A stretch of DNA of 64,000 nt from Acidimicrobiia bacterium (GTDB lineage Bacteria; Actinomycetota; Acidimicrobiia; IMCC26256; PALSA-555). A model generated the notes under the pieces. The model did not search any database. It worked only from the letters and a program-made list of their open reading frames with translations, and was not told where the DNA came from. Made by a program: the position numbers and the translations under genes. Where the stretch lies: NCBI GenBank assembly GCA_035948415.1, contig DASZJD010000055.1, forward strand, positions 1-64,000, given 5' to 3'. Positions 32,922 to 36,898 of this stretch are shown piece after piece (within the stretch, counting starts at the first letter, position 1; each line of letters opens with the position of its first letter).

Positions 32922-34439
32922 TCAGGGCTCGAGGCGCGGGAACAGCGGCTCGCCCTTGTCGAGGGTCGTCCCGGCGGGGCCCCGGCCCCAGGCCGCCGCC
33001 TCCGGCAGGCGCTCGTCCTCGGGCCGGCCCGGCAGGCCGAGCCGACGCCACAGCTCGGCGCTAGCGCGCGGGATCGCCGGCGAGGCGAGCAGCGCGACGA
33101 CCCGCAACGCCTCGAGGCAGTCGCCGAGCACCGCCGCGGTCGCGGCCGTGTCCCCCGACCGGTGGAGCCGCCACGGCTCCTCGGCCTCGATGTAGGAGTT
33201 CGCGGCGCGGATCAGGTCCCACACCGACGCCAGCCCGGCGGCGTAGTCCAGGCGGTCCATCCCGGCCTGCATCCCGTCGAAGGCGCGCCGCGTCGCGTCC
33301 ACGAGCGGGCCGTCGGCCCGGGCCGCTGGCGCCACGCCGTCGCAGTAGCTGGCGGTCATGTTCAGCACCCGGTTGGCCAGGTTCCCGAAGTTGTTCGCCA
33401 GGTCGGCGTTGTAGCGGGCGACCATGGCCTCGTAGCTGAAGTCGCCGTCGGGCCCGAAGCGCTGGTCGGCGAGGAAGTGGTAGCGGAAGCCGTCGGCGCC
33501 GAAGTCGGCGACGAGTTCGGCGGGGGCGATCTGGTTCAGCGCCGTCTTGCTCATCTTCTCGCCGCCGACGAGGAGGAATCCGTGCGCGAACACGCACTGG
33601 GGTGGCGTCTCGCCCGCGGCCAGCAGCATCGCGGGCCAGTACACGGCGTGGAACCGCAGGATGTCCTTGCCGACGAGGTGGTGGACGGTGGGCCAGTACC
33701 GGTCGAAGCGCGCCCGGTCCTCGCCGTAGCCGACGCCGGTGCAGTAGTTGAGCAGCGCCTCGAACCACACGTAGGTCACGTGCGCCGGGTCCCAGGGCAG
33801 CGGGATGCCCCACGACAGCGACGTGCGGCTCATCGAGAAGTCGCGCAGGCCGCCCTTGATGAAGCCGAGCACCTCGTTGCGGCGGCTCTCGGGCTGCACC
33901 GCCTCGGGGTGCGCGGTGTAGTGCTCGAGCAGCTGGTCCCCGAAGCGCGAGAGCTGGAAGAAGTAGTTCTCCTCGGTGACCCGCTCGACCGGCCGGGCGT
34001 GGACGGGGCACAGGCCGTCGACGAGCTCGTCCTCGGTGTAGTAGGCCTCGCAGGCCACGCAGTAGAGGCCTTCGTAGATCCCGAGCTCGATGAAGCCGTT
34101 GTCGTGGATGACCTCGAGGAACTGCTGCACGGCGCGGTAGTGGCGGGGCTCGGTGGTCCGAATGAAGTCGGTGTTCGAGATCTCGAGGAGCCGCCACGCC
34201 TCCCGGTACCGCTCGCTGGTCCGGTCCGCCCACTCTCGTGGCGTCACCCCCTGCTCCTCGGCCGCGCGCTGCACCTTCAGCCCGTGCTCGTCGGTCCCGG
34301 TGAGGAAGACCACGTCGTCGCCCCAGAGGCGCCGCCACCGGGCGAGGGCGTCGGCGGCCACGGTCGGGTACGCGTGCCCGATGTGGGGGGCATCGTTGAC
34401 GTAGTAGATCGGCGTCGTCACGTAGAACGGCGTGGCCAT
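32922..34439 (-). CDS. metG: methionyl-tRNA synthetase
   Basis: This class I enzyme charges initiator and elongator tRNA-Met. The 505-residue protein is the short form without the C-terminal tRNA-binding domain. The HIGH motif appears as APHIGHAYPTVAAD and the KMSKS loop as GGEKMSKTALNQ. Near FLTGTDEHGLKVQ is the Met pocket, and CVACEAYYTEDEL with CPVHARPVER is a zinc-knuckle-like region with two Cys and a Cys/His. It starts at ATG 34439. It heads metG-tatD-rpfB-rsmA-ispE. Confidence 0.98.
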   Translation of the reverse strand: MATPFYVTTPIYYVNDAPHIGHAYPTVAADALARWRRLWGDDVVFLTGTDEHGLKVQRAAEEQGVTPREWADRTSERYREAWRLLEISNTDFIRTTEPRHYRAVQQFLEVIHDNGFIELGIYEGLYCVACEAYYTEDELVDGLCPVHARPVERVTEENYFFQLSRFGDQLLEHYTAHPEAVQPESRRNEVLGFIKGGLRDFSMSRTSLSWGIPLPWDPAHVTYVWFEALLNYCTGVGYGEDRARFDRYWPTVHHLVGKDILRFHAVYWPAMLLAAGETPPQCVFAHGFLLVGGEKMSKTALNQIAPAELVADFGADGFRYHFLADQRFGPDGDFSYEAMVARYNADLANNFGNLANRVLNMTASYCDGVAPAARADGPLVDATRRAFDGMQAGMDRLDYAAGLASVWDLIRAANSYIEAEEPWRLHRSGDTAATAAVLGDCLEALRVVALLASPAIPRASAELWRRLGLPGRPEDERLPEAAAWGRGPAGTTLDKGEPLFPRLEP

Positions 34440-34469: not shown

Positions 34470-35321
34470 TCAGCCCCGATTGGCGCGGGACGCGACGACC
34501 GCGTCGTAGGCCCGGCGGCGCGACACGCCGAGCCGCGCCGCGACCTGCGCTGCGGCGTCCTTGGCCGACAGCCCCGAGGCCACCGCCGCCTGGGCCTCGA
34601 CCGCCAGGTCGGCGTCGGTGGCGGCGACGGGCTCGGCGGCCCCGAGCACGAGCACGTACTCGCCCCGCGGCGGCTGGGCTCGGACGTGCGCGAGGGCCGC
34701 GGCGAGGGTGCCTCGGAACACGTCCTCGTGGAGCTTCGTGAGCTCGCGCGCCAGCGCGACGGGCCGGGCGGGCCCGAGGGCGTCGACGAGCTCGGCCAGG
34801 GTGTCCGGCACCCGGTGCGGGGACTCGAACAGCACCGTCGTGCGCGGCTCCCGGGCCAGCTCGGCCAGGCGGGCGCGGCGGGCCGGTCCCCGCCGGGGCA
34901 GGAAGCCCTCGAAGGCGAAGCGCTCGGTGGGGAGCCCGGAGACGACGAGCGCGGTCACGAGCGCGGTGGGGCCGGGCACGACCTCGACCTCGAGCCCGGC
35001 CTCGAGGCAGGTCCGGACCAGGCGCGCGCCGGGGTCCGAGATGCCGGGCATGCCGGCGTCGGTGACCACCGCCACCGTCCTCCCGGCCCGGATGGTCTCC
35101 ACGAGCTCGGCCGCCCGGGCTCGCTCGTTGTGCGCGTGGACGGCCACAAGCCGCCGGCCCGCCGCCACGCCGGCGTGGGTCAGGAGGGCACGGGTCCGCC
35201 GGGTGTCCTCGGCCGCGATGACATCCGAGTCGCGCAGGGCCTCCACCGCGCGGGGGGCCAGGTCGGCGAGGTTCCCGATCGGTGTCCCGACGAGCACGAG
35301 CCGCCCGCGGCTCACCGCCAC
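34470..35321 (-). CDS. rsmI: 16S rRNA (cytidine1402-2'-O)-methyltransferase
   Basis: RsmI methylates the ribose of C1402 in the 30S decoding centre. The 283-residue protein has the tetrapyrrole-methylase fold with LVLVGTPIGNLADLAPRA, AAEDTRRTRALL, VTDAGMPGISDPGARLV and VPGPTALVTALVVSGLP. A C-terminal helix-turn-helix-like segment (SAKDAAAQVAARLGVSRRRA) is typical. Start GTG 35321; a second GTG at 35315 would remove two residues. In line with metG, 30 nt apart. Confidence 0.95.
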   Translation of the reverse strand: MAVSRGRLVLVGTPIGNLADLAPRAVEALRDSDVIAAEDTRRTRALLTHAGVAAGRRLVAVHAHNERARAAELVETIRAGRTVAVVTDAGMPGISDPGARLVRTCLEAGLEVEVVPGPTALVTALVVSGLPTERFAFEGFLPRRGPARRARLAELAREPRTTVLFESPHRVPDTLAELVDALGPARPVALARELTKLHEDVFRGTLAAALAHVRAQPPRGEYVLVLGAAEPVAATDADLAVEAQAAVASGLSAKDAAAQVAARLGVSRRRAYDAVVASRANRG

Positions 35322-35367: not shown

Positions 35368-36390
35368 TCACACGTTGAACCGGATCTCGAGCACGTCGCC
35401 GTCCTGGACCACGTAGTCCTTGCCCTCGACGCGCAGCTTGCCGAGCTCCTTCGCCTTGGCCCAGGACCCGATCTCCAGGAGCTGCTCCCAGCCGATCACC
35501 TCGGCGCGGATGAAGCCGCGCTGCAGATCGGAGTGGATGACCCCGGCGCACTCGGGCGCGGTGGACCCGGCCCGGAACGTCCACGCCCGCGACTCCTTCT
35601 CCCCCGTGGTCAGGAACGTCCGCCGTCCGAGCAGGTGCAGCGCCCGGCGGGCGAGGCGGGGCACGACGCTCTCGGTGACGCCGAGGTCGGCGAGCAGCTC
35701 CGCCCGTTCCGGGCCGTCGGCGGCGACCACCTCGGGGTCGCCCTCGAGCTCGACGCAGACCGCGAGGGCGTCCTCGCCGAACCGCGAGGCCAGCCGGTCG
35801 CCGTCGTCGAGCTGGCCGACGTCGATGTTCACCACCACCAGCGTCGGCTTGTTCGTCAGCAGGAACACCGGACCGAGGCGGGCCCGGTCCTCAGCGTCGA
35901 CGTCCGAGCGGTGCACGGGCACCCCGTCGCTGAGGGCGGTCTCGGCCCGCTCGAGCGCGGCCACCTCGGCCGCGAGCGACGGGTCGCCCTTCGCGGCGCG
36001 GCGCTGCTTCGCCAGCCGAGCCTCGACGGAGCCGAGGTCGGCGAGGATGAGCTCCTCCTCGAGCGCGGCGGCCTCCCCGCCGGGGTCGTGACCGCCGCTG
36101 GCTCGGACCACGAGCAGGATGGCGTCGCAGTCGCGCAGCGACCCGAGCAGGCGGCTGCCGAGGCCCTTCCCCGCCTCGACCGAGAGGGCCGGCAGCATCG
36201 CCACCTGGAAGGAGGCGCGGACGACCTGCTTCGACCTCGACATCTCGGCGAGCCGGTCGAGGCGTTCGTCGGGGATCGTGACGACGCCGAGCACCCGTTC
36301 GGCGGCGCTGGGGGCGTCGTGGCCGGTCAGCGCGGCGAACACGCCGTCGTGACCCGAGTCGGGCAGCCCGACCAGGCCGAGGTGCTCCAC
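35368..36390 (-). CDS. YchF/DUF933-type protein lacking a functional P-loop
   Basis: A 340-residue homologue of the universal ATPase YchF/OLA1. It keeps the spacing of YchF: LGLVGLPDSGHDGVFAALTG, GVVTIPDERLDRLAEM, GKGLGSRLLGSLRDCDAILL, and the C-terminal TGS-like domain (APECAGVIHSDLQRGFIRAE, EGKDYVVQDGDVLEIRFNV). The nucleotide site is degraded. The G1 loop expected as GLPNVGKST reads GLPDSGHDG, so the invariant Lys and Ser are missing. The DIAG of G3 is lost (region reads MLPALSVEAG). It is probably unable to bind ATP normally and may act as a binding or scaffold protein on the ribosome (inference). GTG 36390 is chosen for the YchF N-terminus. Confidence 0.88.
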   Translation of the reverse strand: MEHLGLVGLPDSGHDGVFAALTGHDAPSAAERVLGVVTIPDERLDRLAEMSRSKQVVRASFQVAMLPALSVEAGKGLGSRLLGSLRDCDAILLVVRASGGHDPGGEAAALEEELILADLGSVEARLAKQRRAAKGDPSLAAEVAALERAETALSDGVPVHRSDVDAEDRARLGPVFLLTNKPTLVVVNIDVGQLDDGDRLASRFGEDALAVCVELEGDPEVVAADGPERAELLADLGVTESVVPRLARRALHLLGRRTFLTTGEKESRAWTFRAGSTAPECAGVIHSDLQRGFIRAEVIGWEQLLEIGSWAKAKELGKLRVEGKDYVVQDGDVLEIRFNV

Positions 36391-36451
36391 CCGGTCGAGG
36401 CTATCGGCGGGTCGGTGCAGACTCTTGGGCGTCGCCGCGAAGGAGGGGACC

Positions 36452-36898
36452 ATGGCTGACCTGGCAGCGCTCGTCGACCGGCTGGCGATCGAGGAGGTGC
36501 TCACCCGCTACGCGTGGGCGCTCGATTCGAAGAGCTTCGACGGGCTCGACGAGGTGTTCACGGCGGACGCGCACATCGACTACACGAGCTCGGGCGGCGT
36601 TGCCGGGCCCTTCCCGGAGGTGAAGGCCTGGCTGGCCCGGGTGCTCCCGCACTTCCCGGCGTACCAGCACCTGGTGACGAACCACCAGATCACCGTCGAC
36701 GGCGACCGGGCCACGAGCCGAGCCGAGTTCTACAACCCGATGGTCACGGCGAAGCCGGACGGGTCACGCGGCATCTTCTTCGTCGGTGGCGAGTACCACG
36801 ACCAGCTCGTGCGCACGCCCGGGGGATGGCGGATCAGTGAGCGGATCGAGAAGTCGGTGTGGACCGACGGGGAGTTCCCCGCGGCGCCGCCGACGTGA
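36452..36898 (+). CDS. SnoaL-like / NTF2-fold protein
   Basis: A 148-residue cone-shaped alpha+beta barrel protein of the SnoaL-like group. The opening LVDRLAIEEVLTRYAWALDS and the FTADAHIDYTSSG strand are typical, as is VTNHQITVDGDRATSRAEFY. Relatives include dehydratases, isomerases and hydroxylating-dioxygenase small subunits; the substrate is unknown. ATG 36452 is supported by a strong AAGGAGGGG Shine-Dalgarno at 36440-36448. It diverges from the YchF-like gene and converges with the subtilase (4-nt gap). Confidence 0.87.
   Translation: MADLAALVDRLAIEEVLTRYAWALDSKSFDGLDEVFTADAHIDYTSSGGVAGPFPEVKAWLARVLPHFPAYQHLVTNHQITVDGDRATSRAEFYNPMVTAKPDGSRGIFFVGGEYHDQLVRTPGGWRISERIEKSVWTDGEFPAAPPT

Follow-up and report, generated by a model that had tools for sequence, protein, structure and literature searches.

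YchF/OLA1 (TIGR00092, PF06071), an Obg-family TRAFAC enzyme, is described as a universally conserved ribosome-linked ATPase, and the purpose of its ATPase is poorly understood. The catalytic residue of the E. coli protein is His114. Proteins that have a G-protein fold without nucleotide-binding motifs, and that are nevertheless kept by selection, are known from the pseudoGTPase domains of p190RhoGAP (PMC5593906). The p190RhoGAP examples are parts of a regulatory protein of eukaryotes, whereas the protein described here is the only YchF of a bacterium. A literature search of partial coverage returned no paper that links YchF with the term 'pseudoenzyme' or reports a degenerate YchF P-loop.

The window, meaning the whole stretch of 64,000 nucleotides of Acidimicrobiia DNA that was analysed, contains a gene whose product is a YchF family member as judged by homology but lacks the motifs that define the family as enzymes; it is, in other words, a putative pseudo-ATPase YchF. 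Its coding sequence (Table 1) has the strand, GTG start and stop that an earlier note, made from the DNA letters alone, had assigned to it. The note had also described the product as collinear with YchF over its full length, which profile searches and an alignment with a crystallised YchF uphold. TIGR00092 matches residues 6-341 over model positions 6-368 (E=1.9e-68), with a score of 231 bits that falls under the curated cut-off of 279 bits; PF06071 matches with 120 bits (cut-off 27), and the YchF of crystal structure 1jal matches residues 5-341 (E=1.9e-57). The three domains follow one another in the same order as in YchF, neither the coiled-coil part nor the TGS domain has been lost (TGS profile score 24.6 against a cut-off of 22.2), and the C-terminal TGS-like domain is indeed well kept, as had been claimed, being 60% identical to a canonical YchF compared with 25-36% in the other regions. 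The protein differs from the family in being about 20 residues shorter and in scoring below the NCBIfam cut-off, and because of that low score automatic annotation probably names such P-loop-less proteins only as DUF933.

The predicted structure points the same way. An AlphaFold2 model made from 21 native homologues had a pLDDT of 87.1, and its 15 best matches in the PDB were all YchF/OLA1 structures with TM scores of 0.74-0.81; the predicted fold is that of 1jal, 2dby and 8kie, the last being a 50S-bound YchF matched at TM 0.81. Within the lineage, relatives with and without the P-loop have the order ychF-rsmI-metG in common, which shows orthology. Sequence, predicted fold and gene order together identify the coding sequence as the bona fide YchF orthologue of its genome. 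A SnoaL-like gene is divergent from ychF in the window. Most of the loci examined from the family have a gene of this kind opposite ychF, and none of those from other families does.

Table 1. Features of the ychF locus, in positions of the window
Feature	Position	Strand	Remarks
P-loop-less ychF, coding sequence	35368..36390	-	340 aa; GTG start at 36390; stop codon included (ends 35368)
Former G1/P-loop	36346..36369	-	Residues 8-15, GLPDSGHD replacing GLPNVGKS; 26/26 relatives of same type all carry Ser12 and His14
Former G3/Switch II stretch	36157..36192	-	Residues 67-78, PALSVEAGKGLG replacing DIAGIVKGASEGEGLG segment
TGS / YchF-GTPase_C domain	35374..35619	-	Best-kept part of protein
rsmI-like gene	34470..35321	-	Directly downstream of ychF; conserved cluster
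metG-like gene	32922..34439	-	Same conserved cluster
SnoaL-like gene	36425..36898	+	

The difference from described YchF proteins lies in the nucleotide site. The earlier note had reported that the G1 Lys and Ser are replaced and that the G3 DxxG is gone, and both losses are seen in the alignment: GLPNVGKST reads GLPDSGHDG, so that the GxxxxGK[ST] pattern lacks both the P-loop Lys and Ser, and VDIAGIV reads AMLPALS, with LPAL in place of DIAG. This account of the P-loop and G3 stands, but three things had gone unnoticed: Switch I (NYPFATIEPN) and the loop bearing the catalytic His (IHVSG) are deleted as well, 36 genomes of the order show the loss, and the genome yielded no second YchF. The NxxE form of G4 is also absent, NIDV standing in its place without the Glu. 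With Lys14, Ser15, Switch I, DxxG and the G4 Glu all missing, binding of Mg-ATP or GTP is very unlikely, as judged from the residues. Most of the G4 segment (LLTNKP...VN) persists together with a predicted Rossmann-like core, and some pseudo-GTPases still bind nucleotide; it is conceivable, then, that nucleotide is held in a non-canonical manner, by residues that have migrated or by contacts to base and ribose through the remaining G4 Asn. We regard this as quite improbable in view of the five absences just listed; moreover, Gly13, which a P-loop needs, varies to D, E or Q among the relatives that share the window motif, and the members of family f6 additionally lack the G4 Asn.

The loss is not peculiar to one genome. 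GKS/T is absent from YchF in 36 sampled genomes from nine families of the same Acidimicrobiia order, and a maximum-likelihood tree of 108 proteins groups all 36 P-loop-less rows in a single clade (support 100/100) that arises from within rows retaining GKS/T. Its rows are of two types: xSxH, with 26 rows from eight families and including the window protein, and AG[AST]N, whose 10 rows all come from family f17; separate losses for the two types were considered and are unneeded, both lying in one clade. It is therefore shown that the P-loop Lys and Ser were lost once, in an ancestor inside the order. One of the carriers is a single-contig genome (G019), in which the position of ychF matches that in CP011489.1 (at about 376135-377151) from Actinobacteria bacterium IMCC26256, a strain reported as the deepest Acidimicrobiia branch (PMC5962788). 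The suggestion of the earlier note, a conserved YchF that binds no nucleotide, is thus supported, the lack of binding as a prediction from sequence: members of the genus and of the family have the loss in common with eight other families, and the altered region is under purifying selection. The note had also reasoned that GKS/T in the homologues of all close relatives would point to a local error, and the genes of those relatives do not show that pattern.

Nor does the genome appear to hold another YchF. PF06071 gave one match in the genome of origin (a 98.3% complete draft), namely the window protein, and the search for an intact second ychF that had been proposed in the note, made with both PF06071 and TIGR00092, found none; three other TIGR00092 matches were fragments of 20-30 bits in frames of other proteins, and a hidden second YchF is ruled out by these searches. 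One PF06071 match per genome was likewise the state of 11/12 genomes in the family, 55/58 in the order and nearly all of the 247 in the class, and the few genomes with two matches, where examined, had split genes or a weak second match. Over the former G part, the P-loop-less pairs that were tested gave pairwise dN/dS values of <=0.25, often <0.15, much as P-loop-intact pairs do, with the most diverged pairs near saturation; purifying selection acts on this part of the P-loop-less proteins. That the genome is an incomplete draft would leave some room for a sequencing or assembly error, or for a decaying pseudogene with the true YchF elsewhere in the genome. However, the state is common to 36 genomes, the single-contig one included, the reading frames are open throughout, the dN/dS values are low and the PF06071 match is single. 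Such a shared, single-copy and selected state rules this explanation out, and we give it practically no credence. A split gene of the P-loop-intact type was seen in G042 (L216/L225, G042:C6 109511-110562), where ychF runs over two frames covering residues 2-245 and 241-341, as the result of a frameshift or of a mistake in the assembly.

The old phosphate site has acquired motifs of its own. In the xSxH type a His occupies the position of the Lys and, like Ser12, does so in every row, while in the other type the AG[AST]N motif is present in 10/10 rows with Asn15 invariant (structure prediction for this type, from nine rows, reached a pLDDT of only 52). The new invariant His and Ser, and the appearance of a different motif in the other subclade, are what might be expected of full neofunctionalisation, the main rival to the explanation that we prefer, in which the protein would have left the ribosome and the Ser12/His14 pocket would take a new ligand, metal or partner. 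Against this, the TGS domain and the C-terminal part are the most conserved portions of the protein (the TGS domain has a mean identity of 82-85% in both P-loop-less types, besides its closeness to canonical YchF), the gene order is unchanged, and seven genomes of the same order have a canonical YchF in its stead (G028, G029, G030, G046, G047, G054 and G055). We therefore consider neofunctionalisation unlikely.

Five of these seven canonical proteins were placed in the tree, where they fall in a distant clade (support 100/99). In G054 the canonical gene occupies the position immediately upstream of rsmI that the P-loop-less gene has in related genomes; no genome with both forms was found among the sampled genomes of the order, so the two forms look interchangeable. 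These observations fit a replacement of P-loop-less by canonical YchF and suggest one functional slot. No relic of the P-loop-less gene was seen beside rsmI in the canonical-form genomes. The mutual exclusion, on a base of seven MAGs of which four are <85% complete, shows that the slot is shared and does not imply a mechanism.

We consider it fairly probable that the window protein is a pseudo-ATPase with a ribosome-associated role, an adaptor that is constitutively 'switched' and does not depend on nucleotide. The TGS and helical domains of YchF are thought to make an RNA-binding cleft (PMC8779481), and because both are kept, retention of a ribosome-associated role that is independent of ATP appears most likely from sequence and model. 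The remodelled N-terminal domain, the coiled-coil and the TGS domain would together form a cleft that binds the ribosome or RNA; the step that ATP binding and hydrolysis ordinarily control would be fixed in one state or governed otherwise; and the His and Ser (or Asn) that have become invariant at the former phosphate site may serve structure or another ligand. Two published statements count against such an adaptor. According to a review, the N-terminal ATPase domain is a main ribosome contact of YchF (PMC8779481), and it is the most changed part of the window protein. In addition, an ATPase-deficient E. coli YchF mutant does not rescue cold-sensitive growth (PMC8779481), which would mean either that this role is absent in the P-loop-less bacteria or that the protein has been re-tuned.

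The nearest P-loop-intact proteins in the tree, also from Acidimicrobiia (L026, L032, L034, L038 and L042), have the same rsmI-metG neighbours where checked and differ from the window protein in keeping GKS, Switch I (HPFSTTE or HPFSTME) and a DIA-type G3, yet they have already lost the His loop. This combination indicates an ordered decay, in which the catalytic His loop likely went first and the P-loop, Switch I and G3 followed. In the same class, an extremely diverged YchF of family f25 (L103, genome G067; branch length 2.75) keeps GEPRSGKST and has lost Switch I and G3.

A second loss is found elsewhere in the phylum. In family f65, outside the class, GAGATT, GAGTST or GAGAST stands in place of GKS/T, and the Lys is lost in 4/4 genomes in which a YchF was found (L320, L321, L329 and L330, from three genera); in G274, a fifth f65 genome that is 94% complete, the search gave no YchF match. 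The protein tree requires two Lys losses, none of 200 bootstrap trees permitting a single one, and on that phylogeny the loss in f65 is independent of that in the Acidimicrobiia order. Taken more broadly, and here we are tentative, it may be that in part of the Actinomycetota the conserved cellular role of YchF needs no ATP, the NTPase having been dismantled stepwise (His loop, then P-loop) at least twice, to leave a ribosome adaptor that is blind to nucleotide and has a new conserved site at the old ATP position. An order whose only YchF has no nucleotide site, sister lineages that interchange dead and live forms, and a further loss that arose independently separate ATP-dependent from ATP-independent functions, and the P-loop-less proteins of this uncultivated actinobacterial order are natural, ready-made test proteins for the roles of YchF without ATP. 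Also outside the class, families f56, f62 and f68 (L308-L319) have a short YchF, mostly of 324-331 aa, in which the P-loop is kept, Switch I is lost and G3 is changed to DVPGG or DVAG, possibly an intermediate state.
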